Shown here piece by piece: positions 27,924 through 46,780 of a stretch of DNA of 64,000 nt. The stretch is taken from contig NZ_JABZFL010000051.1 in NCBI RefSeq assembly GCF_014237455.1, forward strand, positions 1 through 64,000, in the 5' to 3' direction. The position numbers and the translations under genes were made by a program. Numbering within the stretch: position 1 is the first letter of the stretch; every line of letters begins with the position of its first letter. Under the pieces are notes generated by a model that ran no database searches, had not been told where the DNA came from, and saw nothing but the letters and a program-made list of their open reading frames with translations. Source of the DNA: Desulfobacula sp. (GTDB lineage Bacteria; Desulfobacterota; Desulfobacteria; Desulfobacterales; Desulfobacteraceae).

Positions 27924-30900
27924 TCAGACAGAAATTTTCAGACTGCTGTGGTAAGAATGCCTTTTCCCTGAATCCTTGAGAAATGGGACAATCACTTTGT
28001 TTTTATTGCCACCTGAAATATCATATGTGATACTCACTATGGGCACATTGATTTTTGCTTCAATTTTTTGTGACATGGCTTCTGTAACAAGCCCGGCACA
28101 ACAGAATGCCGGGTTGGTCTGAACCAGCAGTTTTAAATCAGGATAGTCATTGATAATATGGTGAATTTTTAATATATTATCCATGGATTCACCCGTATGT
28201 TCCTGAAGGATGCCATATTCGGAAAGGATATTCTCATAAGAGTCCTTTACTTCAAATGCAGATTTACTTAAAATGGGTTCGAAATATTTATAATATTTTT
28301 TTTCCATGGCCTGCATGGCGACAAGAAGCGCCCCATTTGAAAACAAACTTAAATATTTTCCTTCTTTGAACCATTTTTTGAAATAAGAATTAGCGATAAT
28401 TTTGGCATATTTGTAGTAAGATGTTGTAATGACCTCACCACCATTGTCTTCAATAAAATGAACCAGATCCTGATTCATAATGTTATTATCTCTAACATAG
28501 AGATCCCCGAAAATTCCAACCTTAGGCCTTGATTCGGTTCTTGTTTCAATGTCTGAAAACATCTGGATAGCATTTTTTAATGCTTCTTCTTTGGGCTCTG
28601 ACTTTTCAAAAGCATTGCACAGAATTTTCAAGGCTTTTGGAAGTACCCGATCTGTTTCGCCCTTATGTATTTCATAGGGTCTGATTTTGCATCCAATATT
28701 TCTTAGCAATCCTCCAAACATATAGGCAAAATATGCATTGGTTGCAGCCTTATAGGAAAGGTCAAATAACGATAGCTGGCCTTTGTAAATTCCAGATTTT
28801 TCAAACCCGTTACCATTTTTCTCAAGAATCTTTTTTATATGATAGGGATACATCTTAATATTGCAGGCAATATCCGATGGATTTAACCATAACACACAAT
28901 TTGACGGATCAAGATTGTTTTTTTCTATAGTATGAATAAATCCTGCTGCCACTGCATTTAAAGGAATACATTGTCCCGTATTGGTCAGAATGCTTTTTTT
29001 CAGGGTTTCATGGGTTTCTTCCATTAAAAAAGCATTGAATCCTTCATTCCTTAAAACAGAAACAATCAGGCTGCCTGAGTATGAATCCCAGTTTGGATAA
29101 ATAATGGTTTTGTTTTCTATTTTTGATAAAAAATTTGGATGAAGAAGAGAAATATCGTTCTTTTTTTCTTTTAAAGTTGAATTGTTATGATTTGTAAATG
29201 CATGCACGGCTGCTTCAACCCTTGTCTCATAACCGACACTGGAGTCATGCTCATCAAGTTCCAGTACAAGATAGGGCTTATTATAACTTTCCATTATCTG
29301 TTTAAAATAGTCGATACCAAAAGAGTCTGGCCCACATTTAAACGAGCTGATATATACAGAATAAAGATGATCACTCTTTGCAACAATATATGCAGCTTTA
29401 AGAACTTGTGCAGCATATTTCCAGTGGATCTCCTTTAATAAAGGATCAATTTGGGAAAAATCCAGGTTTTCAAAATCAAGCATATCCTGGAAAAAAGTTT
29501 TTACACCAAGGTTTTCAAAAAGTTGGGGAATATTGTTGTTCATTGTTTTGGTCAAAACAGTGTAGGGCCTTCCCAAAAGAACAACATTGATATTTGAATC
29601 TTTGGATTTATATTGCTGATATAAAGCTTTTCTGTTTAACTGACAATTTTCTTTAAATTCCAATGCACTATCATATGCGGCTGATATATCAAAAAATGAA
29701 AATAAAAAGTCCGAGGATATTTTTTTCAAAGATTTATATAATTCCAATTTGGTATGAAAATTTGTATAAAGATATTTGATAATCGGTGAGAGTATCCTTT
29801 TTTTGTCAAAATCCGAAAGGCAGGATATAATCGATGGAGCAAACTGAGTATAGTAGCAATACTGCCTGCGTCTATTTTTTCCCTCTGGTTTTTCTTCAAA
29901 ATAGAATGGCAGAAAGATATAGTCTGCTTTACCCATTAAATACTGAACGTGACCATGCAAGGCCACCACAGGAGCACAGAATTCTGCAGTTGCAATACCT
30001 TTCCCTGATTTTACAGGATCTTTAAGTTTTGAACTTGTTGTTGTTTTAATTCCCAGCCTGGAAAAAAAGTGGACCCAGAAATCAGTGTCTTCAAAGAGGT
30101 GAAGTGCTTGAGGAATACCAATGACAAAGTCATGTTTAATTGTTGGTTTTTCTATTTTGGGAATTGCTTGGTTTCTTATTTTCAACAGGTTATAGGCGTT
30201 TTCTTTTGGGACCATTCTATTTGTCTGATAATCTCTACCACACAAAAAACCATATGCAATAGTTTCATCACCAATGTCTGCAATGGTTAATTTACAGTGA
30301 TTGGTGCAGAGTTCACAGGTTTCCTGGCGTACCGGAATCTGCTGTTTCCATAAGTCAAATCCTCTAAAATCGGATGTCTTGATTTGTTTTTCTCTTAATA
30401 ATAAGGCCACGCCAAGCGCACCTGTCAGATGGCAATATTTTGATACATGAACCGGTTTTTTCAATTTTTGTTCAAATGCCGCAACAAGTGCTTTGTTCTT
30501 GGCCGTTGCACCTTGAAAAAGAATACAATTCCCTATTTTGCCGATAGTGGCCACTTTTGTCAGATAGTTGTCTCTTACAGAATGTAGAACCGAGGCGAGA
30601 ATCTCGTCTTTTTTATATCCTTGCGCAAAATAATAATTAATATCCCGTTCCATGAAAACAGTACATCTGTCACTGGCTACAGGAGAGCAGACTCCTTCTG
30701 CTCGATCAGAATATTCAGAGAGAGGGCAATCTAGTTTTAAGGCCTGCTCTTCTATGAAACTTCCGGTTCCTGCCGCACATACGGTATTCATGACAGAAGA
30801 GGTGACAATGCCGTTTTTAAGCAAGGTGAACTTGGCATCCTGGCCTCCGATTTCGATAATTGTATCCACGTTCCTGTTTAAACTAACCGCTGCTGTTGCA

Positions 30901-32141
30901 TGGGCAGTAATTTCATCGGGTTCAATATCCGCGCCAATGATTTTGCCGCTGATTCTTCGCCCAGACCCTGTGGTCCCACAGCCTTTAATTTTGATTTGAA
31001 CTCCATAAGTTTTGGAAAACTGATCCCAGGCTTTGAAAATTTTTTGAACAGCTACCACAGGCTGTGATGCAGTTTTTGTATAAAATCCGGCAATGGGTAT
31101 CCCTTCCTGATTGATGAGGATGCTTTTGGTACTTGTTGAACCTACATCCAGTCCTAAATATCCTTCTTTGGTATCGATTAAGTCTGGATTTTGATAAATA
31201 TCGGCTTCAACATCCTCGCTAATATAAGAGGAAAAGCATTTAAAATCAGGGTATTGTGAAAATTTAAGTTTAAGTTCCGGATAGGAAAGAACCTTTTCTT
31301 TTTTTGATGATATAAAAAAATCTTCTATAGATATGAAGTCACTTTTCTCAATTTTTTTTTTGTTAGCCAGATCGTCCAGTAAACAGAGTGCTGCACCTGC
31401 CGCACCATAAAATATTGATTTTAAATCAATGACAAATTGATACCCTGTGATCTTTTCAAGATGGTTTTTAACAGACCTGTTTTGAGAAACGCCACCACAA
31501 AAAAGAATTTTTTTACCGACCTGTTTATATTGAAAAAGAGTGTTGGAAATATTTTTTGCAAGACCATAACAGAGGCCGTCACAGATTTGTTCAATGCTGT
31601 AACCTTCCTGCTGGGCATGGATAAGATCTGTTTTGGCAAAAACCGCACAACGGGTGGCGATATCAGGTATTTTTTTTGAATTTGCAAAAGCTTTTTTGCT
31701 CAGTTCGTGAGATCCACCCAGCAGATTTAATCTTCGGGCCTGCTGATCAAGAAAACTTCCTGTGCCGGCAGCACAAGATGTGTTATGTTTGGCTCCAATA
31801 TAATTTTGATTCCCGTCAAACCGACTTAATGAAAATTTTTCCCCGCCGATGTGTAAAATCGCATCAAATGTTTTATGATAATATTTGGCAGCGCGGATGA
31901 GTGTTAATTGTTCGTCATAAAACTGGTTTGCCTTAATGAAAGAAGGGGTAGCGTCAGTAACTGCAACATGCCCTATGGTTTTTAAATTAATATTTTTGAT
32001 TAATTTTGAAAGACATTGTTTTACTTCTCCATGATGATAACAGGTGCCTGTATGAACAATATTGCCCTCATCATTTAGCGCCACGATATGAATAGAGACA
32101 GAGCCAACATCAATACCGAGAATATGTGACGAAGATTTCAT
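27924..32141 (-). CDS. BadF/BadG/BcrA/BcrD-type CoA-dehydratase activase with DUF2229 (1405 aa)
   Basis: A very large protein of the activator family of 2-hydroxyacyl-CoA dehydratases and benzoyl-CoA reductases. Two ASKHA ATPase modules are present, starting at GIDVGSVSIHIV (about residue 9) and YLGLDVGSTSTKS (about 327). Each has the CAAGTGSF block that supplies the cysteine of the bridging [4Fe-4S] cluster. A DUF2229 region follows from about 640 (ETCELCTNHC) and then a dehydratase-subunit-like C-terminal region. Such proteins are thought to drive ATP-coupled low-potential electron transfer, but the substrate is unknown. The ribbon-helix-helix-like gene lies two bases upstream, probably in the same transcript. 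Confidence 0.85.
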   Translation of the reverse strand: MKSSSHILGIDVGSVSIHIVALNDEGNIVHTGTCYHHGEVKQCLSKLIKNINLKTIGHVAVTDATPSFIKANQFYDEQLTLIRAAKYYHKTFDAILHIGGEKFSLSRFDGNQNYIGAKHNTSCAAGTGSFLDQQARRLNLLGGSHELSKKAFANSKKIPDIATRCAVFAKTDLIHAQQEGYSIEQICDGLCYGLAKNISNTLFQYKQVGKKILFCGGVSQNRSVKNHLEKITGYQFVIDLKSIFYGAAGAALCLLDDLANKKKIEKSDFISIEDFFISSKKEKVLSYPELKLKFSQYPDFKCFSSYISEDVEADIYQNPDLIDTKEGYLGLDVGSTSTKSILINQEGIPIAGFYTKTASQPVVAVQKIFKAWDQFSKTYGVQIKIKGCGTTGSGRRISGKIIGADIEPDEITAHATAAVSLNRNVDTIIEIGGQDAKFTLLKNGIVTSSVMNTVCAAGTGSFIEEQALKLDCPLSEYSDRAEGVCSPVASDRCTVFMERDINYYFAQGYKKDEILASVLHSVRDNYLTKVATIGKIGNCILFQGATAKNKALVAAFEQKLKKPVHVSKYCHLTGALGVALLLREKQIKTSDFRGFDLWKQQIPVRQETCELCTNHCKLTIADIGDETIAYGFLCGRDYQTNRMVPKENAYNLLKIRNQAIPKIEKPTIKHDFVIGIPQALHLFEDTDFWVHFFSRLGIKTTTSSKLKDPVKSGKGIATAEFCAPVVALHGHVQYLMGKADYIFLPFYFEEKPEGKNRRRQYCYYTQFAPSIISCLSDFDKKRILSPIIKYLYTNFHTKLELYKSLKKISSDFLFSFFDISAAYDSALEFKENCQLNRKALYQQYKSKDSNINVVLLGRPYTVLTKTMNNNIPQLFENLGVKTFFQDMLDFENLDFSQIDPLLKEIHWKYAAQVLKAAYIVAKSDHLYSVYISSFKCGPDSFGIDYFKQIMESYNKPYLVLELDEHDSSVGYETRVEAAVHAFTNHNNSTLKEKKNDISLLHPNFLSKIENKTIIYPNWDSYSGSLIVSVLRNEGFNAFLMEETHETLKKSILTNTGQCIPLNAVAAGFIHTIEKNNLDPSNCVLWLNPSDIACNIKMYPYHIKKILEKNGNGFEKSGIYKGQLSLFDLSYKAATNAYFAYMFGGLLRNIGCKIRPYEIHKGETDRVLPKALKILCNAFEKSEPKEEALKNAIQMFSDIETRTESRPKVGIFGDLYVRDNNIMNQDLVHFIEDNGGEVITTSYYKYAKIIANSYFKKWFKEGKYLSLFSNGALLVAMQAMEKKYYKYFEPILSKSAFEVKDSYENILSEYGILQEHTGESMDNILKIHHIINDYPDLKLLVQTNPAFCCAGLVTEAMSQKIEAKINVPIVSITYDISGGNKNKVIVPFLKDSGKRHSYHSSLKISV

Positions 32142-35646: not shown

Positions 35647-36456
35647 TTAGATTTTGAACAGATCACTACGCCTGTTGGGCAGAAAATATCGCATTTTATG
35701 TGATCTGACCTGATCTAAAACAGCTTTTTCCATATTGATAATATGGATTCCCTGGGTTTCATCGAGTGATTTGTAGATGACATTTCCATCCGGCCCGATT
35801 AACATGCTTATTCCCGGGAACGAAAGTCCTTTGGAGTTATCACCGGTTTGATTGCAGGCGGCAATATAAAGTCCATTGTCAAATGCCCTGGCTCTTAAAT
35901 GCCGAATCCAGGAATCGTATTTTTCCTGTGCACTGCCCCTGGGGGATGCGTGGGGAATAAAAATTATATCTGCTTTTTTTAAAGCCATGGCCAGTGACAG
36001 CTCTGGAAAATGTGCATCATAGCAAAGCTGGATGCCAAACTTAAATCCATGTGATTTAAAAATCGGAATTTTATCTCCTGCAGTAAAATATTTTTTTTCA
36101 AAAGGTGCTGTATGGATTTTTCTATAGATTTCAAATGATCCGTCAGTGTTAAACACCAGGTGCGATGCATATATTTCTTTTTGGGGATTTTCCTCTGCCA
36201 GGCCAATAAGTATAGTTATTTTCAAATCTTTGGCCTTAGTTGAAAACAGGTCTACCAGGTCATCATTTATGGGTTTACAAATACTTGTTATATCAGGGCT
36301 TGAAACATAACCTGTTAGGTTCATTTCAGGAAAAATAATAATTTTCGCACTCTTTTCGCTTGCTGAGGAGATAAATTGAAGAGTGGATTCAAGGTTTTTT
36401 TTAAAGTTTCCGGCAATGCAATTTTGAACGATAAGAGCGGCTTTAATCGTTTTCAT
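35647..36456 (-). CDS. carbon-nitrogen hydrolase (nitrilase superfamily)
   Basis: A 269-residue cytoplasmic hydrolase of the nitrilase/omega-amidase superfamily. The catalytic triad is visible: Glu in IIFPEMNLTGY, Lys in YRKIHTAPFE, and Cys in FGIQLCYDAHFPEL. The substrate is unknown: ureidopropionase-, carbamoylputrescine amidase- and omega-amidase-like enzymes all share this pattern. Its start overlaps the end of the AhbA-like gene by four bases, so the two are translationally coupled. Confidence 0.88.
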   Translation of the reverse strand: MKTIKAALIVQNCIAGNFKKNLESTLQFISSASEKSAKIIIFPEMNLTGYVSSPDITSICKPINDDLVDLFSTKAKDLKITILIGLAEENPQKEIYASHLVFNTDGSFEIYRKIHTAPFEKKYFTAGDKIPIFKSHGFKFGIQLCYDAHFPELSLAMALKKADIIFIPHASPRGSAQEKYDSWIRHLRARAFDNGLYIAACNQTGDNSKGLSFPGISMLIGPDGNVIYKSLDETQGIHIINMEKAVLDQVRSHKMRYFLPNRRSDLFKI

Positions 36457-36908
36457 AATTTAAAATTAGCACTTATTTTAAAAACTCTTGTTGCGGGCAG
36501 ATTTAATATGGTCTCAACGCCGGTTGTTTTAATAATTTGTTCAAGATTGGTTTTTATAATTTCAACGGAAGGAGCAATAAATGTAAACCAAATATTGAAT
36601 TCGTGATCCCGTTTGTAATTGTGCGTTACCCCTGAATAAGCATTCACTGTTTTTGTAAACAGCTTCATTTTATCTTCAGACACTTTGGCTGCACAAAGGG
36701 TTGAATGGTATCCAAGCCGGTCAGGACTGAAATTCCCGCCAATACGCCTGATCAGCATATTTTCCTTCATCTGATGAATTCTTTTGATCAACTCATCTTC
36801 AGAAAGACCAAGTTTTTGGGCAAGAATTTTATAGGGCCTGGAATCAATAGGAAAATCAACCTGGATGTTATTAAGAATCTTTCGGTTTTTATCATTAATT
36901 ACAGACAT
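36453..36908 (-). CDS. ahbA: siroheme decarboxylase subunit (AhbA-like, Lrp/AsnC type)
   Basis: A 151-residue protein with an Lrp/AsnC-like winged-helix N-terminus (KILAQKLGLSEDELIKRI) and an RAM-like C-terminus. The GVTHNYKRDHEFNIWFTF segment matches the AhbA subunit of siroheme decarboxylase. AhbA/B converts siroheme to 12,18-didecarboxysiroheme in the alternative haem pathway of sulfate reducers and archaea. AhbB is normally adjacent, but here the neighbour is a nitrilase gene. A purely regulatory role is the alternative. Confidence 0.75.
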   Translation of the reverse strand: MSVINDKNRKILNNIQVDFPIDSRPYKILAQKLGLSEDELIKRIHQMKENMLIRRIGGNFSPDRLGYHSTLCAAKVSEDKMKLFTKTVNAYSGVTHNYKRDHEFNIWFTFIAPSVEIIKTNLEQIIKTTGVETILNLPATRVFKISANFKL

Positions 36909-37007: not shown

Positions 37008-37325
37008 CTATACACATCCGGTTGGTTTTGGAAGACCGGCCATTTTACATGCGCCTTTTCCAGGTCCTGACGGGAATAGTTCGTAGATGTGTTTCAGTTT
37101 AAACTTGGTCAGTTTGGAAAGAACACGAACCATTGGAGCGATACCATTTTTTTCGTAATAATCCTGGAGAACTTTTACAAGTGTCCAGTGTTCGTCGGTA
37201 AGTTCTTCGATGCCTTCCTGACCTTTTACATAGTCAACCCAAACTTCGGAATAAGTATTGTAATCAAGAAGAAAACCATCTTCATCTATTTCAAAAGATT
37301 CTCCGTTAAACTCGACTGTTGCCAT
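37008..37325 (-). CDS. dsrC: DsrC/TusE family sulfur-carrier protein
   Basis: A 105-residue protein. The C-terminal arm has both redox cysteines (ACKMAGLPKPTGCV): the penultimate residue and one eleven positions earlier. True DsrC of sulfate reducers has both, while TusE-type homologues have only one. DsrC carries sulfite-derived sulfur as a trisulfide from dissimilatory sulfite reductase and is reduced at the membrane by DsrMKJOP. Here it follows the Hdr-Flx cluster but has its own promoter and terminator. GGAGG precedes the ATG. Its strong, separate expression signals fit the high abundance of DsrC in these organisms. Confidence 0.95.
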   Translation of the reverse strand: MATVEFNGESFEIDEDGFLLDYNTYSEVWVDYVKGQEGIEELTDEHWTLVKVLQDYYEKNGIAPMVRVLSKLTKFKLKHIYELFPSGPGKGACKMAGLPKPTGCV

Positions 37326-37450: not shown

Positions 37451-38296
37451 TTAATATTCTTTCGGAGTCTGGTTAATTTGTTCAAGAGTAAAGACTGGAC
37501 CGTCTTTACAAACCAGTTCCTTCCCGATATTGCATCTGCCGCACATGCCGATTCCGCATTTCATTCTATTTTCAAGAGACATAATAATTTGATGTTCCTT
37601 ATACCCAAGCTGGGTCAGGGACGGCTGGGTGAATTTAATCATGATCGGGGGCCCGCAAATAATTGCATATGTATCCTCATCAGCCTTTGGTGCATTCTGT
37701 TCGACAATAGTGGGAACAAAGCCTGTATGGTATTTCCAGTTTGGGTCATCGGTTCCATCAACTGTGATATGCATGTTGATATCATCTCGTTTTTCCCATT
37801 CAAAGAGCTCTTCTCTGTAGAGCAACATACCCGGAGACCTTGCACCATAGACCACATCGATATTTTTGAATTTGTTCCTGTTGGCCGGATCAAGCATATA
37901 GATAATGGAGGATCTTAAAGTTGTAAATGCAAATCCACCGCCAATAATAACAACATTTTTATTTTCCAGTTTATCCCAGGGATACCAGTTTCCCAGAGGC
38001 CCCCTGATTCCCATAATATCTCCCACCTTCATGTTATGAAGATAGGCTGTAACAACACCGGTTCTGAAAACAGTAAATTTTACAAATCCTTTTTCTACAG
38101 GAGAGGATGCAATTCCTATGGGAATTTCTCCAACGCCTGGAATAGATAACTCTGCAAATTGTCCGGCCTGGTAAGCAAATTTTTCTTCATCCCCTTTATT
38201 AAGAAAAATAAATTTAAATGTTTTAAGGGATTTATCTTCAGTTGCAATTTCAATATCATCAATGCGAACTGGATACGGCATATAGGGATTTTCCAT
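37451..38296 (-). CDS. flxA: FAD/NAD(P)-binding oxidoreductase subunit (FlxA-like)
   Basis: A 281-residue protein of the ferredoxin-NADP reductase/dihydroorotate dehydrogenase electron-transfer type. The FAD part has AGQFAELSIPG, and the NAD part GPLGNWYPW and VVIIGGGFAFTTLRS. The C-terminal CGIGMCGRCNIG...C binds an iron-sulfur cluster. In Flx-Hdr complexes this module oxidises NADH and feeds electrons to HdrA for bifurcation. The position at the end of the cluster, directly after two iron-sulfur subunits, supports that. AsrB or hydrogenase gamma subunits are similar alternatives. Confidence 0.88.
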   Translation of the reverse strand: MENPYMPYPVRIDDIEIATEDKSLKTFKFIFLNKGDEEKFAYQAGQFAELSIPGVGEIPIGIASSPVEKGFVKFTVFRTGVVTAYLHNMKVGDIMGIRGPLGNWYPWDKLENKNVVIIGGGFAFTTLRSSIIYMLDPANRNKFKNIDVVYGARSPGMLLYREELFEWEKRDDINMHITVDGTDDPNWKYHTGFVPTIVEQNAPKADEDTYAIICGPPIMIKFTQPSLTQLGYKEHQIIMSLENRMKCGIGMCGRCNIGKELVCKDGPVFTLEQINQTPKEY

Positions 38297-38313: not shown

Positions 38314-39366
38314 CTAATTTTGTTTCTCATATGAGTTCATCATCTTGCACACTTCGCGTATGTCGATATTAACCGGACAGCTTTTAACACACCTGCCGCA
38401 TCCGACACACATAATACCCTGGTCGTATTTATCAAGAAAATATTTCAATTTATGCATAAACCTTTGCCTGACCCGCTGGGTCTTTGTGCTCCTTGGATTA
38501 TGCCCTGTCGCATGCCGGGTAAACAACGATGACATACAAGTGTCCCAGTTACGAATCCTGATGGATGATTTGTGCTTGGTTTCATCCTGGATATCAAAAC
38601 ACCAGCAAGTCGGGCAGACATAGGTACAGGTACCGCAATTAATACAGGAAAATGCAAAATCATCCCAGAAAGGAGCTTCATGAAGCTCAAGGAGGATTTT
38701 TTCTTTTAATTTATCGGTATCAATATGTGAAGCAATATTTTTTTCAGCCTCTTTTTTCAACACATCAAACAGTACACCGCTTTCCGTTTCATCGGCTGAG
38801 GTTTTAAACCCGCAAGTATCCATAAAAGCCTCGCCTTTATCCGTCAGGATTTTTGCCAGGTATTTATCATCAAAATCAGCTAGAAGTACATCAAGGCCAG
38901 CTTCTTCAAAAGGTCCGCTTCCAGTGGATGTCGAAAAATCAAAGGGCCCTGGTTTATTGATGCCTAATCCTACAAAGGTAGTGGCTTCGTATGCGTCACA
39001 CCAATAGGGGTCACGATAGTCCTCAGTGTCAAAATTAAGTTTGACCAGCTCCATTGCCTTTGCATCATAGGGCCTGATTCCTAAGACCGCTCTGGGCGAC
39101 GTATCGGTTTCTGATTTTTTCATGATGTGATGGTCTTCCTGCGATTCATCCAGACTGGTTACGAGCATTTTTTCAGTCTGGGGGAAAATAACCGATTTTG
39201 CGGACATCACGCAATCATTATAATCCATTTCAGGCAGGATATCATTTTCAAGTTTTTTGATAAGAAAACTATTTTTATCTTTAACCGGACCAAAAAGCGT
39301 ATAGGTTTTTCTGGAGGCTTCAATGCCTTTGGCCCAGTCTTTTTTATCAATTGATATAAATTTCAT
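38314..39366 (-). CDS. 4Fe-4S dicluster electron-transfer subunit (FlxB/AsrA-like)
   Basis: A 350-residue cytoplasmic iron-sulfur protein. The N-terminal 230 residues resemble the AsrA/hydrogenase beta-subunit fold and the C-terminal part carries two ferredoxin motifs (CINCGTCTYVCPTC and CVGCGRCVKSCP). In Flx-Hdr clusters such a subunit wires the NADH module to HdrA. It lies 17 bases upstream of the FlxA-like gene. I leave the symbol open because FlxB/FlxC naming depends on the reference. Confidence 0.82.
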   Translation of the reverse strand: MKFISIDKKDWAKGIEASRKTYTLFGPVKDKNSFLIKKLENDILPEMDYNDCVMSAKSVIFPQTEKMLVTSLDESQEDHHIMKKSETDTSPRAVLGIRPYDAKAMELVKLNFDTEDYRDPYWCDAYEATTFVGLGINKPGPFDFSTSTGSGPFEEAGLDVLLADFDDKYLAKILTDKGEAFMDTCGFKTSADETESGVLFDVLKKEAEKNIASHIDTDKLKEKILLELHEAPFWDDFAFSCINCGTCTYVCPTCWCFDIQDETKHKSSIRIRNWDTCMSSLFTRHATGHNPRSTKTQRVRQRFMHKLKYFLDKYDQGIMCVGCGRCVKSCPVNIDIREVCKMMNSYEKQN

Positions 39367-39382: not shown

Positions 39383-40330
39383 TTACTTGATAAAATCATT
39401 GGGATCGTCCGGTGTAAATGTATCCAAAGGAGGTCTTTGTTCCAGAGTAAGTCCTGCTTCCCATCCATAAATCTCTAATGAATCTTTGTTCAATTTTCTT
39501 GTAAAGTCCCTGACATTAATATCCATGGGGCAGGCTTCCACACATGCCCCGCAATCTGTGCATCGACCGGCACAGTGGTACGCTCTCAGATAATGAAAGG
39601 TTCTTATATCTGTAGGGTCCTGGCCCTTGCCAACCCATTGAGGACCGGATTCATCAACAAAACATGTCGGGCAGTAGCAGAGCGGACAGGCATTCCTGCA
39701 GGCATAACACCTGATACAGTTTTTTAAAAGATTATCAAAGTGATTCCATTTCTCATCCGCAGTCATTTCTTCAATCAACCGAACATCAGAAAACTGATCT
39801 TCGATCTGCTGCTCCTCTACAAGGTCTGCAACCAGTTCATCGTAAATGACAGGATTCCTGTGTGTGCAGGTCATGCAGTTTGATTTGAGAACTTCGGTTT
39901 TATTGATATTTTTTTCATCAGATAGGGTTTTAATGGTAATAACCTCATCTGTTTCTGAATACCCGGTAATTTCTTCATCAAATAAGGACGACACCTTTAT
40001 TTTATCAATCATGCCGTTGCAGGGAACACCGATAATATGCAATTGTTCCCGTTTGATTTTGTTTTCAATAATATGGGTGACAATATTTCGACAATCACAT
40101 CCTTTGGCGATAATGCCTATCTTTTCCTTTCTGCTGGTAAGATAGTTGGCAAGATTAATCCGACAATTGTTGTCCCATATGAATTGTTCTGCCTGTTCAG
40201 AGGTTTTTGCAATATGCGGACTTGCGGCCATGGGTATAGTCCCTTGCTTGAAACCAATGATGAAATCGACTTTTTCATCTTTTAACAGATTGGCGGAAAG
40301 TTCCCTTATTTTTGTTGTATAGCTGTCCAT
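39383..40330 (-). CDS. FrhB/FdhB-like iron-sulfur subunit (FlxC-like)
   Basis: A 315-residue protein with an N-terminal FrhB/FdhB-like half (FIIGFKQGTIPM, AKGCDCRNIV, GVPCNGMID, CMTCTHRNP). Its C-terminal part has two cysteine clusters (CIRCYACRNACPLCYCPTC and CTDCGACVEACP). The cysteine spacing fits several [4Fe-4S] clusters. In the cluster it is placed between MvhD and the FlxB-like subunit and is probably a wire of the same complex. It begins about 11 bases after the mvhD stop. Confidence 0.8.
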   Translation of the reverse strand: MDSYTTKIRELSANLLKDEKVDFIIGFKQGTIPMAASPHIAKTSEQAEQFIWDNNCRINLANYLTSRKEKIGIIAKGCDCRNIVTHIIENKIKREQLHIIGVPCNGMIDKIKVSSLFDEEITGYSETDEVITIKTLSDEKNINKTEVLKSNCMTCTHRNPVIYDELVADLVEEQQIEDQFSDVRLIEEMTADEKWNHFDNLLKNCIRCYACRNACPLCYCPTCFVDESGPQWVGKGQDPTDIRTFHYLRAYHCAGRCTDCGACVEACPMDINVRDFTRKLNKDSLEIYGWEAGLTLEQRPPLDTFTPDDPNDFIK

Positions 40331-40341
40331 GTAGCTTGTCC

Positions 40342-40767
40342 CTAGGCTGATATTTTTTTAACAAGTTTATTGTTGGGCCCGACTGTTTCAACAATCTGGG
40401 TCACTTCTTTTACAACATCCACAAATTTGGTTGCTTCAGCAGAAGATATCCAGGAAAAATGAAGCCTTTCTTTTTCTATCCCCATGTGTTCAAGGAGGTT
40501 CCCGGCAAGCGCAAATTTTCTTCTGGCATAATAATTACCATCCAGGTAATGACATTCACCAGGATGTCAGCCGGATACCCATACAGCATCAGCCCCTTCT
40601 CTGAAAGCGGATAGAATAAATTTAGGGCTCATTCTTCCCGTGCAGGGTATTCGAATAACACGAATATCAGCCGGATACTGCATCCTGCTGACACCGGCAA
40701 GATCTGCAGCACCATAACTGCACCAGTTACACAGGAAACTGATTATTTTTAATTTTTTTTCACTCAT
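40342..40767 (-). CDS. mvhD: selenocysteine-containing MvhD-like (FlxD) iron-sulfur subunit
   Basis: A 141-residue protein read through an in-frame TGA at 40567-40569 (residue 67). The N-terminus has the MvhD pattern [13 protein letters not shown], and the centre [13 protein letters not shown]. After the TGA the frame continues [20 protein letters not shown], split here as HPGECHY and [10 protein letters not shown], exactly the MvhD sequence in which the TGA position is cysteine or selenocysteine (G-C/U-H-x-G-x-C-H-Y). It then runs to a TAG at 40342. MvhD binds a [2Fe-2S] cluster and passes electrons to HdrA. It starts 13 bases after hdrA. Annotation pipelines would probably truncate it at 66 residues. 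Confidence 0.9.
40534..40550 (-). promoter_or_regulatory. candidate bacterial SECIS hairpin in mvhD
   Basis: On the minus strand ATTACC (40550-40545), loop TGGAT, GGTAAT (40539-40534) forms a perfect six-base-pair hairpin that begins 16 bases after the UGA. Its place matches the bacterial selenocysteine insertion element recognised by SelB, and the distance is almost the same as in hdrA. Confidence 0.6.
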
Positions 40768-40780
40768 TATTCATATCTCC

Positions 40781-43700
40781 TTATACAGCAGCAGTGGCTG
40801 CATTTTTTTCATCTTTTTTGCCTGTTTCATTTTTATCGTCTGTTTGTCCTGCATCGCCTGATTCAATTTCATCTAAGGCAAATATCTGGGCAAATATCTG
40901 ATGGGTATCAAATCCTTTAAGATGTATGGCTCCTGATCTACAGGAAGCAACACACAGGCCGCATCCTTTGCAGAGAACAGGGTTTATTTCAGCCTTACCC
41001 TCATACCGTCCTTCAGTTGTAAAAGACGGGGCAGAAAAAGGACAGATGGATACACATACGCCGCATGAACTGCATTTCTCCTGATCCACCCAGGCGATAG
41101 TCCCGTCCATGTTCATCTTCTTTTTGGCAAGAAGCGTAACCGCCCTTGTAGCAGCAGCCATGGCCTGGGATATTGACTCGTCAATGGGTTTAGGTGCATG
41201 GGCAAGACCGCAGAGGAATACCCCATCTGTTGCGCAGTCAACCGGTTTGAGTTTTGCATGGGCTTCCATGAAAAAGCCGTCAGCGTTTTGTGCGATTTTA
41301 TACAGAGCGGTAAGTTTATTTTTCTTTTCAGGAATAATGGAAGAGGCCAGGACAATCAGATCACTCTTTATCTCCATTTTTCTTCTAAGAGACGTATCAG
41401 AAAAAAGAATCTGCAGTTGACCCTCATTGACAGCCACTTTAAGGTCTTTTTCAAAGTCAAATTTGATAAATTGTATCCCTTTGGTGCGGGCTTGAGTATA
41501 AAGATCTTCCCTTAATCCAAAGGGACGCATATCACGATACAATATAAATACATTCATTGCAGGATTCATTGATTTTAATTTCAAAGCATTCCTGATGGAT
41601 TGAGTGCAGCATACTTTTGAGCAATAAGGCCGCTCCGGTATCCTTGACCCCACACATTGGATAAAGACGGCCGTATTTGTGGATTTCAGTTCTTCATCAT
41701 TATTTATAATTTTCTGGTCTAATTCAAGCCCTGTCATGACACGGTCATCTTCTCCGTAAAGATGCATTTCAGGTTTTAACTCGGAAGCACCTGTGGAAAT
41801 AATTGTAATACCATGCTTCAGTGTTTCCGCGGCACCGTTTTTGCTGATATGAGTTTCAAAGTTTCCAACAAATCCATCAACATCGGTTATTTCAGTATTC
41901 AAATGGATATCAATTAATTTGTCTTCTTCAACAGATTTTATCATTGCGGAAAGATGCGTTTGAATATCTTCACCCTGCCAGGTTTGATAAAGGTTATTTG
42001 CCTGCCCGCCAAGCGTGGCTTCTTTTTCAATTAGATGGGTATGATATCCCTGATCGGCAAGTGTTTTTGCAGCTACAATCCCTGCAACACCCCCACCGAT
42101 AACTAATCCTGACTGGTCAATTTCAAGGGTGGGTTCTGTTAAGGATTCGTGCAAAGCAACTTTTGCAGTGATCATCCTGACTAGGTCTTTGGCTTTTTGA
42201 GTCGCTTTTTCAGGCTCTTTGGCATGTATCCATGAACACTGGTTCCGGATATTGGCCATGTCAAACAGATATTTATTGATACCCGCGTTTGTTAATGTCT
42301 CCTGGAACAGGCCCTCATGGGTTTTAGGTGTACAGGCAGCTATGACAACCCGGTTTAATTGTTTTTCCTTGATGATATTTGTAATGGCATCCTGGGTATC
42401 CTGGGAGCAGGAAAACATATTCTCCTGGGCGAATTCAACATAGGGTAGTTTTTTAGCCATTTCAACAACCGCAGGCACATCAACTACACCGGCTATATTG
42501 GTCCCGCATCTGCAAACAAAAACACCGATTCTCGGTGCTTCTCCTGTTATATTAATTTCTTCGGGGATTTCTTTAGTTTTTGTAAGAGACCATCTAGCGT
42601 CCATAAGGTTGATGCCCGCCATCCCGGCAGCAGCACTGGATTCAATAACAGAAGAAGGGATATCTTTTGGGGCTTCAAACGCACCACAGATGAAAACACC
42701 GGGTTTTGACGTCTTAACCGGTTCAAAACTATTGGTAGTAACAAAATTGTAATGATCAAGAGAAATATCCATTTTGCCTGCCAGCTCAATTGCTTCTTCT
42801 CCAATACACAGTCCAACGGATAATACAACGATATCAAATGCTTCTTTTTGTCTGATTCCGGTTTCATCTATGTAATTAATGAGTTGCAGGCCTGTTTCAG
42901 AATCAGGAACAATATGGGTGATTTTGGATTTAACAAATCTTATTCCGGATTCATCCCTGCCCCTGTTATAGAAATGTTCATAGTCCTTACCATGGGTCCT
43001 GATGTCCATATAGAAAATAGCGGTATCCAAAGGATCATGACTATGTTCCTTGGCCAGCATCGCTTCTTTTACGGCATAGGTACAGCAGACAGAAGAACAA
43101 TATCCATTGGAACCCAAATGATTGTCCCGTGAACCGATGCATTGCAGCCAGGCTATTTTTTTAGGCTCTTTCTTATCAGAAGGCCTTACCAGATGTCCCT
43201 CATAAGGTCCGGCAGAAGAAAGGATTCGTTCAAACTCAAGACTTGTTACAATATTTTTGGATTTAGTATATCCGTAAACATCATGCTCTCCCGGATCATA
43301 GGGTTTGCAGCCCGAAGAAATAATGACAGAACCCACATTCAAGGTTATTTCCTTTTGCTGATCCTCATAATTGATGGCATCGGTAGGGCATACTTCTGCA
43401 CATTTCCCACATTTTCCCATAGTAAGGAAAATACAGTTCTTTGCATCAATTGAATATTTTAAAGGCACTGCCTGGGCATACTTTACATATATTGCTTTTC
43501 GTTTTCCAAGCGCTTCGTCATATTCATCATCCACTTTTTTGGGGCATTTTTCAGCGCACAAACCGCAGGCAATACATTTATCCATGTCAACAAATCTTGG
43601 ATGTTGAACAATATCTACTTTAAAATCACCTGCTTCACCAGAGATATGCTTAACTTCAGATAAGGTTAGAAGTTCAATATTTATATGCCGGCCGACCTCG

Positions 43701-43900
43701 ACCAGTTTTGGTGAAATAATTCACATGGCACAATCATTGGTAGGAAATGTCTTGTCCAATTGAGCCATAATCCCGCCAATGGAAGAAGACTTTTCCACAA
43801 GATAGACATAATATCCGGAATCAGCCGCATCAAGTGCTGCCTGCATGCCGGAAATTCCACCTCCAACGACCATTATTGAACCTATTTTTTTTGATGACAT
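40781..43900 (-). CDS. hdrA: selenocysteine-containing HdrA, double-length flavin/iron-sulfur subunit
   Basis: The bifurcating flavoprotein of heterodisulfide reductase-type complexes. ATG at 43900 follows AGGAG and gives 1039 residues with selenocysteine at residue 60, encoded by TGA at 43723-43721. The flanks NDCAM and [12 protein letters not shown] are the conserved HdrA context where other species have Cys. Residues 1-450 form a first HdrA-like part (FAD motif VVGGGISG; ferredoxin [11 protein letters not shown] and CGKCAEVC). From about 455 a second HdrA starts ([15 protein letters not shown] motif IGGGVAG near 610) and ends with two more ferredoxin motifs ([22 protein letters not shown]). 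It is usually mis-annotated as two pieces. Confidence 0.93.
43688..43705 (-). promoter_or_regulatory. candidate bacterial SECIS hairpin in hdrA
   Basis: On the minus strand CTGGTC (43705-43700) pairs with GGCCGG (43693-43688), using G-U pairs, around the loop GAGGTC. The loop contains GGU, the hallmark of bacterial SECIS apical loops. The hairpin begins 15 bases after the UGA, inside the hdrA coding sequence. Confidence 0.65.
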
Positions 43901-43949: not shown

Positions 43950-44936
43950 TTATTCAACGCTTTGGGTCTCTTTTTTGCCTACTTTTTTCTCAACAGGTTT
44001 TTTAGTTAATTTTTTCTTTTTTCTTTTTTTCTTCAACTTTTTTTCTTTAGTGTCAAAAAGTTTGGAATAAACTTGATTCAAATTTTCATTGTCTTGATTC
44101 TCTTGGCTGTCAATTCCCAGTTCTTCTTTTCCCAGACCCAGACGAAGTCCTAAAAGCTGTGTATATAAAATTGAAGGCAGGTTGTATTCTTTATTTCTTT
44201 TTGAAACAATTTGATTCTGTATTTTATCAAACTGCATGTGACACCATGGACAGGCCACACAAATAAAATCAGCCCCTGCTTTTTTGGCACTGCCTAATTT
44301 TTTCTCGGTAAGGTCATAGGACAAACTGTCATTAATCCCAAGAACCGGTGCCCCGCAGCAGTCCAGTTTGGATGCCCACTCAATACTCTTTGCCCCTGTA
44401 ACTTTGACAAGGTTGTCGAAAAGCGACGGTGAGGCCGGATCATCAAACTTCATGATTTCAGACGGCCGAAGGGCATGACACCCATAATGGGTGGCTATGT
44501 TAAGATCTTTATAATGATCAATTGTTTTTTTGTTTAATTCATCAATTGTAATGTCATCGTGCAGTACGGATAAATAATGTGATATCGAGGAGGTCCCTTG
44601 ATATTTGAGGCCTTCTTTGCCAAGAATTTTATTGATTTTTACTTTTAAGCCATCATCCTCTTTTAAAACCGCATTGGCTTTTTTAAGACTTCCAAAACAA
44701 CATTTACAAAGGGTCAGGATGTCTTTCCCCGCATTTTCAGCCAAAGCAATGTTTCTGGCTGAGGCCAGCACCCATGCGGTTTGATCTGTATTCTTCATGG
44801 GGTAACCGCAACAATTGAACTCTTTTATATCAACTATATCAACCTCTAGTTTTTTCAGCACAGCCCTTGCTGAGGTCTCGTATGGTTGAACTTTTGCCGG
44901 TATGTTACATCCGATAAATAATGCAAATTTTTTCAT
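43950..44936 (-). CDS. hdrB: heterodisulfide reductase subunit B (HdrB)
   Basis: A 328-residue protein with two CCG domains, which in HdrB hold the non-cubane [4Fe-4S] clusters that cleave the disulfide. Cysteine motifs are LFIGC, FNCCGYPM, LCKCCFGSL in the first half and THYGCHALRP, DCCGAPVLG, ACPWCHMQFD in the second. ATG at 44936 follows GGAAAAAAA; an upstream start at 44972 is less likely. The C-terminus has an unusual 30-residue lysine-rich tail. The usual partner HdrC is fused to the upstream membrane protein here. Confidence 0.92.
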   Translation of the reverse strand: MKKFALFIGCNIPAKVQPYETSARAVLKKLEVDIVDIKEFNCCGYPMKNTDQTAWVLASARNIALAENAGKDILTLCKCCFGSLKKANAVLKEDDGLKVKINKILGKEGLKYQGTSSISHYLSVLHDDITIDELNKKTIDHYKDLNIATHYGCHALRPSEIMKFDDPASPSLFDNLVKVTGAKSIEWASKLDCCGAPVLGINDSLSYDLTEKKLGSAKKAGADFICVACPWCHMQFDKIQNQIVSKRNKEYNLPSILYTQLLGLRLGLGKEELGIDSQENQDNENLNQVYSKLFDTKEKKLKKKRKKKKLTKKPVEKKVGKKETQSVE

Positions 44937-45019
44937 ATTTTTTTCCATTGCTGTACTATTAAAATGGTGCAAATGTTTTAATTAAGTTTTATGTATCTAT
45001 ATGAGCATAGAACATGTCA

Positions 45020-46780
45020 TTATTCTTTTTGAGAGTAAAAACAATCTTTGGACACCTTGTTTTTAAGTTCATAAAAAATATCAGTTACCTTAACGTTCTG
45101 GGGACAGTGCTCCTGGCACTGATAGCAGGTAATACAATCCCACAACATATTAGATCCAAGAGCAAGATTTTCAAGTCCAAGACCTATTGATCTCATCATT
45201 TGATGAGGGAGCAGGTCAAGAACCTGCTCGGGTTTTTCATAGTTCATGACCACCGGGCAGACATTGGTACAGTTTTCACATGAAAAACAATATGAAAATG
45301 TGCTGTCCTGAAGAGAGCGCTCCCTTTTGTCTTTAAATTCATTATCAGTATCGGTCAAGGACAAGACATCTTTTGAATGGCTTTTTTTCTTGTACCTGGA
45401 AGCGATAATGCTCTTGGCATGTCTGGCCGGCATATCAGAAAGCGTGGCACCAAAATCATCCCGGTTGTATGTACGGTTATAGGAAAAGGGTGATAATATC
45501 AGGGGAGTAATTAATGCGCCCGACCTGATGAATTCCTCTCTGACATCGTACCAGAGTTCTTTAAGATTTATTCCGGCCGGACAGACGACCGTACACCTGT
45601 CACAATTCGAACAAAGATAAATACCTTCCTGAATTGCCGTAAATTGTGGTGAAGCAAGATCTTTGGTTTTATAATACTGGCGAAGAGAGAGCATTCTTTC
45701 GGAAGGCAGGATGTTCGTGTTGTTTTTAATATCAAAGGCCGGACCCTGTGAGCATGTTTTGCTGCAGGTGTTACAATGAACACATGCATCAAGTTCAATC
45801 AGCTGACGCGTTGCAATATTCAAAGGATTGGATTTGTCTCTTTGCATAATTGCACCTGTAATTAAACTGATGGGTGTGGTGATAATATGAAGCATTTTAG
45901 TAAAAGGCAAAAGAGCCAGGCCGATAAAACAGGCAAGGATATGAAAGTAATATAAAAATGTAACCAACCCCATGCGGTCAAGCAGCCCTCCTATGGGTTT
46001 CATTATTTTTGATACAGCATATCCGGCAAATGCAGATTGAGGTCTTGTGTGACAATCAAGACAACTTTCATTATGTATTTCTTCGCCGGCTGTCAGAGTC
46101 TCCTGTGAAATCTGATCGGTAACATTTGGAGAGACAAGGCCGTAATATTTTACCCAATACGCTTCCAGGGCCAGTATGTCTTCTTTATATTCAAGGGCAG
46201 AAAAATCTTCTTCCATGTTTCGAAAATCGGTAAAAGAGATAATTTTTGCACCTTCTAGAAAAATTCCGGACAGGATAATGACAGCAACAATAAAAATTGC
46301 ATAAACATCCATTTTATTCGTGCTTAATCTATGAATTTTCATAAAAAAGCGACGGCAAATGGCAATGGCAAGTCCACTCAAAACCATAAAACCGAAAAAA
46401 TCTCTCAGAAACATGTAGGGATTAACAGTTGAATAATAAGAAGGCAAAATTGCATCAGACACAATAGCTTCCAGAGCATGCATAAAGAACAGCAGTATAA
46501 ACCCCCAGAATATCAGCATATGCATTATCCAGCGTAAAACATCCTGTTTAAGGATTTTATGTTGGAAAAGCACATCAAGAACAAATATCTTCAATACAAT
46601 TGCAATTTGGGGGCTAAAAATAATGCCAAGCAGTGCTTTTAAGCTTGAAGCCAATCTTTCGGTAAAAGTAGAATTTTGGGCTTGAATTCCGATTTTATAT
46701 GAAAACCATTGGACAATTTTAAAAAGCATCCCAATAGCAAGTAATATAAGCGATGAATTAAAAAAAAGATCAAAAGCCAT
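45020..46780 (-). CDS. membrane HdrE-like/c-type haem/HdrC fusion protein
   Basis: A 586-residue protein. Residues about 1-310 form a NarI/HdrE-like membrane domain with roughly five or six helices. The loop between helices near 180 and 270 contains one CxxCH haem-c site (CLDCH, 240-244). Residues about 333-410 hold two [4Fe-4S] motifs (CVHCNTCSKTC, CSNCDRCTVVC). The final 100 residues form an HdrC-type domain (CFSCENCTNVC, CITCYQCQEHC). It lies directly upstream of hdrB in the same run and would anchor the Hdr-Flx complex to the membrane and quinone pool. QmoC has related parts in another order. Confidence 0.85.
   Translation of the reverse strand: MAFDLFFNSSLILLAIGMLFKIVQWFSYKIGIQAQNSTFTERLASSLKALLGIIFSPQIAIVLKIFVLDVLFQHKILKQDVLRWIMHMLIFWGFILLFFMHALEAIVSDAILPSYYSTVNPYMFLRDFFGFMVLSGLAIAICRRFFMKIHRLSTNKMDVYAIFIVAVIILSGIFLEGAKIISFTDFRNMEEDFSALEYKEDILALEAYWVKYYGLVSPNVTDQISQETLTAGEEIHNESCLDCHTRPQSAFAGYAVSKIMKPIGGLLDRMGLVTFLYYFHILACFIGLALLPFTKMLHIITTPISLITGAIMQRDKSNPLNIATRQLIELDACVHCNTCSKTCSQGPAFDIKNNTNILPSERMLSLRQYYKTKDLASPQFTAIQEGIYLCSNCDRCTVVCPAGINLKELWYDVREEFIRSGALITPLILSPFSYNRTYNRDDFGATLSDMPARHAKSIIASRYKKKSHSKDVLSLTDTDNEFKDKRERSLQDSTFSYCFSCENCTNVCPVVMNYEKPEQVLDLLPHQMMRSIGLGLENLALGSNMLWDCITCYQCQEHCPQNVKVTDIFYELKNKVSKDCFYSQKE

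Follow-up and report, generated by a model that had tools for sequence, protein, structure and literature searches.

The window analysed here, a stretch of 64,000 nucleotides of contig NZ_JABZFL010000051.1 from Desulfobacula sp., harbors on its minus strand an operon that opens with a gene for an unusual membrane protein. Its 586 codons without internal stop encode, from N to C terminus, a NarI/HdrE-like diheme cytochrome b, a ferredoxin domain and HdrC, and the genes for HdrB, HdrA, MvhD, FlxC, FlxB, FlxA and DsrC follow in this order on the same strand (Table 1). The Flx designations follow the usage of Ramos et al.

Table 1. Coordinates of the fusion protein, its parts and the downstream operon genes (positions within the window)
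Feature	Position	Strand	Basis
HdrE-c-Fd-HdrC fusion, 586 aa	45020..46780	-	ORF, Pfam and NCBIfam domains, relatives
TM1-TM4 and N-terminal part, residues 1-182	46235..46780	-	PF02665, hydropathy/charge profile, conserved His
Candidate haem-b ligand H87	46522-46520	-	invariant in 81/81
Candidate haem-b ligand H101	46480-46478	-	invariant in 81/81
Predicted periplasmic loop, residues 183-271	45968..46234	-	charge profile, loop length in 81 relatives
M189, candidate sixth haem ligand	46216-46214	-	M in 80/81, H in one
CLDCH, putative haem-c attachment motif, residues 240-244	46049..46063	-	sequence; invariant in 81/81 and 30/30
TM5 with candidate haem-b ligands H280, H298	45887..45967	-	TIGR00351 register
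Ferredoxin-like 2x[4Fe-4S] domain, residues 329-404	45569..45796	-	PF13183, 73.2 bits; eight Cys conserved
HdrC domain, residues 496-563	45092..45295	-	TIGR03290, 64.5 bits; HdrC chains by sequence and fold (Z 10.5)
HdrB, two complete CCG motifs, lysine-rich C-terminal tail	43950..44972	-	TIGR03288, 265.7 bits; motif check
HdrA, in-frame TGA (probable Sec) at 43723-43721	40781..43900	-	HdrA2, 806.7 bits; translation
MvhD/FlxD, in-frame TGA (probable Sec) at 40569-40567	40342..40767	-	frame read-through, operon homology
FlxC-like iron-sulfur protein	39383..40330	-	Fer4 domains, conserved operon position
FlxB-like (sulfhydrogenase beta/AsrA family) iron-sulfur protein	38314..39366	-	NF040833, 129.9 bits
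FlxA-like FAD/NAD-binding protein (AsrB/HydG family)	37451..38296	-	PF00175, PF10418; NF006220, 229.6 bits
DsrC, both C-terminal Cys (ACKMAGLPKPTGCV)	37008..37325	-	PF04358, 120.7 bits, single match

The original prediction had read the first gene as an HdrE-like domain with an inserted c-type haem motif, fused to HdrC, and the profile searches bear this reading out. The nitrate reductase gamma family PF02665 (NarI) matches residues 76-181 with 44.2 bits (cut-off 22.9), and the narI profile TIGR00351 places residues 264-308 on its positions 171-215; together with four candidate haem-ligand histidines on two helices these matches identify a diheme cytochrome b of the NarI/HdrE type. The single CxxCH motif, expected in a loop of roughly 85 residues between membrane helices, lies as CLDCH in a TM4-TM5 loop of 88 residues. 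Iron-sulfur domains and HdrC had been proposed to follow this loop, and Pfam detects dicluster domains at residues 329-404 and 496-563, while TIGR03290 (HdrC) aligns with residues 496-580 at a score that lies below the profile cut-off of 160. The HdrC part retains eight conserved cluster cysteines in the 81-sequence alignment described below. In the Pfam search the CCG domain (PF02754) is absent from the fusion chain and found on the separate HdrB, and no cytochrome c domain profile matches the fusion protein.

The side of the membrane on which the loop lies had been set beforehand as the test of the original prediction, and two lines of evidence agree on it. Averaged over 81 homologues, the TM1-TM2 loop carries 8.9 lysines and arginines and the TM2-TM3 loop only 0.27, which places the latter outside, whereas the TM3-TM4 loop (5.0 K+R, 1.0 D+E) is assigned to the inside and the CxxCH loop (6.8 K+R vs. 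16.0 D+E) to the outside. The NarI profile aligns without gaps and brings H280 and H298 to positions 187 and 205, the haem ligands on TM5 of E. coli NarI, and the C-terminal side of TM5 in this register is cytoplasmic. Charge distribution and NarI register thus predict a periplasmic CxxCH loop and a cytoplasmic C-terminal iron-sulfur part, and not the cytoplasmic loop that would speak against a c-type haem. A hydrophobic stretch near residue 59 may form a sixth membrane or interface helix, which leaves the side of the loop unaffected. With the CxxCH motif on the predicted periplasmic side, as in c-type cytochromes, we infer that a haem c is attached at CLDCH and that M189 is a candidate for its sixth ligand. 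The glycine G232 upstream of the motif completes a G-x7-CxxCH pattern similar to that of helix 1 in class I cytochromes c.

Structure modelling had been suggested as a further check, and the AlphaFold2 models obtained reach a moderate pLDDT of 70, which drops below 50 around CxxCH. EtfD of M. smegmatis is the best fold match of the full model (Z 16.8 over residues 1-435). Further matches are NarI with Z 10.4 and the HdrC subunits of several Hdr complexes with Z 9-10.5, and they yield the same succession of domains, which leads from the clusters in the cytosol to the haem in the membrane. The first 330 residues modelled alone gave no better result than the full model, their matches to EtfD (Z 9.0) and NarI (Z 7.3) lying near those of unrelated helical proteins.

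The search for the same fusion in databases, likewise suggested at the outset, showed that it is conserved. A scan with one genome per species detected 319 relatives. The 80 best of them, which all come from Desulfobacterota-type assemblies, were aligned with the protein of the window (n=81). At identities of 47-91 %, the CxxCH motif (C240, C243, H244) is present in all 81 sequences, and so are H87, H101 and H298; H280 is found in 80 of 81 with a single alignment gap. M189 is replaced only once, by histidine (L097), the length of the TM4-TM5 loop varies between 87 and 91 residues, and the sixteen cysteines of the iron-sulfur clusters are all conserved save gaps in incomplete sequences. A profile of the TM4-loop-TM5 segment located the module in 51 of 395 genomes spread across the phylum, and every one of the 30 loci fetched from this search contains CxxCH, including four that a strict motif pattern had missed. 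A chance origin of the motif is rejected because it is invariant in both sets (81/81 and 30/30), and it is even retained in paralogues of about 32 % identity. As judged from these searches, the fusion is widespread in Desulfobacterota. Among the best 80 of the 319 relatives the nearest named one belongs to Candidatus Desulfobacula maris, and relatives are also present in Eth-SRB1 and Eth-SRB2, the partners of ethane-oxidising archaea.

In L026, one of the 58 relatives searched first, the haem-c loop is missing by an in-frame gap and the rest of the protein is kept; it has a second short gap near TM3 and may represent a natural deletion or an assembly fault. An open frame of 745 aa in L024 joins an HdrE-c-type N terminus with CAACH to a CCG (HdrD/EtfD-like) C terminus, so that a one-chain EtfD-like protein has the haem-c loop as well. 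In L037, an open frame of 518 aa carries a cytochrome with seven CxxCH motifs at the N terminus of a NarI-like membrane domain.

The genes downstream of the fusion are conserved as well. HdrB follows directly in 71 of 73 loci and HdrA lies downstream in 42 of 48, and among the 34 loci with at least 7.5 kb of downstream sequence 15 contain the Flx set, ten of them with dsrC within reach. The complete FlxABCD-HdrABC gene set is found together in the operon of the window and in 15 further loci. HdrA and MvhD are very probably selenoproteins, since relatives have either TGA (50/56 for HdrA, 9/14 for MvhD) or a cysteine codon at the same positions. The in-frame TGA is the reason why their listed open reading frames start late or stop early, and a truncation of HdrA by a stop codon was rejected on account of the conserved selenocysteine position. 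The lysine-rich end of HdrB (43950-44060, minus strand) has similar counterparts in six close relatives, with 14-18 lysines and arginines in the last 45 residues, and is absent from the more distant relatives looked at.

In the genome, which is 97.8 % complete, the PF04358 search detected no dsrC other than that of the window, whose product has the two C-terminal cysteines characteristic of DsrC. This gene is located at the end of the operon, away from dsrAB on contig 91 and dsrMKJOP on contig 8, and the presence of dsrA identifies the host, a marine bacterium, as a sulfate reducer. Given that 125 bases lie between flxA and dsrC and that DsrC also serves DsrAB and DsrMKJOP, the adjacency is no proof that HdrB reduces DsrC. 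Just 3' of dsrC lies a gene for the siroheme decarboxylase AhbA (36453-36908, minus strand, above cut-off), an enzyme of haem synthesis from siroheme. Elsewhere in the window, positions 27924-32141 (minus strand) encode an acyl-CoA dehydratase activase-type protein of 1405 aa (TIGR00241) that is related to the activase subunits of benzoyl-CoA reductase.

The same membrane arm recurs in other enzymatic settings. One example is contig 48 of the same genome (L126, 5726-11074), where glpA and glpB, both above curated cut-offs, are followed by a CxxCH-containing paralogue of 538 aa and HdrB at the place of glpC, whose product ordinarily delivers electrons to menaquinone. Elsewhere, in other genomes, it adjoins formate-dehydrogenase-type molybdopterin enzymes (L051, L103), a NuoF-like protein together with an HdrA fused to a NuoG/HydA-like N terminus (L071), or genes of CO dehydrogenase/acetyl-CoA synthase (L095). 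About half of the long loci pair it with cytosolic enzymes other than Flx, thus indicating that DsrC and NADH are not its sole partners. Within the genome, DsrM, TmcC, QmoC and two EtfD-like proteins all lack CxxCH, so that the haem-c loop marks the lineage of the fusion and not NarI-like proteins in general. The genome further encodes complete Tmc and DsrMKJOP complexes, six proteins matching class III cytochrome c (PF02085) and two cytochrome c assembly proteins; a three-haem spacing pattern, which was too narrow, had no match. The class III cytochromes c and TmcA on the one hand and the two assembly proteins on the other are candidates for electron partner and maturation.

We propose, with a probability of roughly 0.6, that the fusion protein serves as membrane arm in a complex of the FlxABCD-HdrABC type and there connects NADH, ferredoxin and DsrC with menaquinone and with cytochromes c of the periplasm. 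NADH would be oxidised by FlxA, FlxB and FlxC, and the electrons would travel via MvhD to the flavin of HdrA, which would split them between ferredoxin (low-potential branch) and HdrB/HdrC (high-potential branch). HdrB could then pass electrons to a trisulfide or disulfide of DsrC, and HdrC via the ferredoxin domain to the two b haems, the periplasmic one of which would be connected to the single haem c of the TM4-TM5 loop. The high-potential branch may thereby exchange electrons with menaquinone, periplasmic cytochromes c and DsrC. Electrons can probably flow both ways, outward under an excess of NADH and inward when hydrogen, formate or the electrons of a partner cell reduce the periplasmic c3 pool. 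The position next to GlpAB implies that electrons move outward to the membrane, whereas the occurrence in Eth-SRB1 and Eth-SRB2 fits inward flow; as these settings pull in opposite directions, we assign no single direction.

Our findings suggest that periplasmic electron carriers are wired directly into a cytoplasmic, NADH-linked and probably electron-splitting Hdr complex. It has long been asked how sulfate reducers connect periplasmic electrons, be they from hydrogen, formate or direct interspecies transfer, with NADH, ferredoxin and DsrC in the cytoplasm. A conserved membrane form that has a haem c of its own would provide Flx-Hdr with a transmembrane route. Such a form would also account for a possible coupling of bifurcation to the membrane in those Desulfobacterota that are complete oxidisers or syntrophs. 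If the proposal holds, HdrC should carry a haem c, an NADH:DsrC activity should be bound to the membrane, and class III cytochromes should act as reductants. More tentatively, and with the odds somewhat against it, an HdrA-based bifurcating complex might span the membrane on its own. Through the single-chain b/c arm, electrons of periplasmic cytochromes, including those from a syntrophic partner, might then drive or receive the split at HdrA, and the state of NAD, ferredoxin and DsrC might be set directly by the periplasmic or extracellular redox potential. The arm itself might be a plug-in module shared with the loci of glycerol-3-phosphate dehydrogenase, formate dehydrogenase, NADH-dehydrogenase-like proteins and CO dehydrogenase/acetyl-CoA synthase.

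Alternatively, the arm may be a one-way inward device in which periplasmic cytochrome c3 receives electrons from hydrogenase, formate dehydrogenase or a partner cell and delivers them via haem c, haems b, HdrC and HdrB to the DsrC trisulfide, with HdrA/Flx only balancing NADH and ferredoxin. The location of the only detected dsrC in this operon and the relatives in the two ethane-linked partner bacteria would agree with such a device, and the same principle is realised in Tmc (PMC5539420). We nevertheless regard it as unlikely, since complete Tmc and DsrMKJOP are already encoded in the genome and the paralogue next to GlpAB speaks for an arm that can work in the outward direction too. The latter context would equally suit a quinone reductase, whose arm only reduces menaquinone from the high-potential branch of HdrA and whose haem c is a buffer or structural element that never meets soluble cytochromes. 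EtfD, which has the same core, reduces menaquinone without haem c (PMC13083937), and L026 has lost the loop and retained the rest. The invariance of CxxCH, the near-invariance of M189 over the whole identity range and the retention of the motif in distant paralogues nevertheless suggest that the haem c has a function of its own, which renders an accessory role distinctly doubtful. That the cysteines form a disulfide or bind metal without any haem, as the missing cytochrome c domain match and the low model confidence at the motif might hint, is very improbable in view of the class I-like G-x7-CxxCH pattern, a motif histidine as invariant as the cysteines, the single replacement of M189 by another haem ligand and the many c-type cytochromes and assembly proteins of the host.

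A comparison with known systems supports the placement of the fusion as a membrane-anchored variant of FlxABCD-HdrABC. The original prediction held that its layout differs from those of QmoC and DsrM/K, and it does differ from the QmoC, DsrM and TmcC of the genome itself. QmoC likewise combines HdrC with an HdrE-like cytochrome b and is attached to HdrA-type subunits, but its domain order is reversed with HdrC first, and it lacks the ferredoxin insert and the CxxCH loop. The qmoC profile gives the fusion 66.5 bits against a cut-off of 300, whereas the true QmoC of the genome reaches 489.9 at another locus. An identity of the fusion with QmoC, DsrM or TmcC was rejected, as each of them is encoded elsewhere in the genome and is devoid of the loop. 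TmcABCD and DsrMKJOP also connect a periplasmic haem c via membrane haem b to a cytosolic CCG protein that acts on DsrC, but their haem c resides on a separate subunit (TmcA, DsrJ). HdrDE of Methanosarcina has a comparable diheme HdrE-type cytochrome b that feeds a CCG protein; it consists of separate subunits and lacks both HdrA and haem c.

The one-chain proteins of the EtfD/EMO/HdrF group (DUF224-type) share the succession of a NarI-like membrane domain and iron-sulfur clusters. EtfD combines five membrane helices and a single haem b with two [4Fe-4S] clusters and a pair of CCG domains, and serves as an electron wire from the cytosol to menaquinone (PMC13083937). In the fusion, by contrast, the two CCG domains that define this group are not part of the chain and reside on the separate HdrB, an HdrC domain is added, and the haem-c loop is inserted. 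HdrF of Desulfobacterium autotrophicum, encoded near glpAB or etfAB, has been described with TM plus HdrC/HdrB parts and without mention of haem c (PMC2702500), and HotSeep-1 has a different haem-c/CCG protein with HdrA (PMC10553843). In the literature searched we found no published description of a haem-c cytochrome b-HdrC fusion; it may be mentioned in Ramos 2015, Appel 2021, Agne 2021 or Ferreira 2023.

The closest equivalent is FlxABCD-HdrABC of Desulfovibrio vulgaris, which comprises the same genes (FlxA, FlxB, FlxC, MvhD-like, HdrA, HdrB, HdrC) and for which DsrC has been suggested as disulfide partner. The passage of PMC10504309 that cites Ferreira 2023 states that DsrC of D. vulgaris binds Flx-HdrABC directly. 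Flx-Hdr is described as cytoplasmic and soluble in the literature searched, whereas the HdrC of this Desulfobacula sp. forms the C terminus of a membrane-embedded chain that starts with the diheme cytochrome b and its haem-c loop, and dsrC is located in the operon. The fusion of HdrC to a membrane cytochrome b implies that the complex should sit on the membrane, and the position of its gene at the head of the Flx-Hdr-DsrC operon argues for a membrane-anchored variant of FlxABCD-HdrABC.
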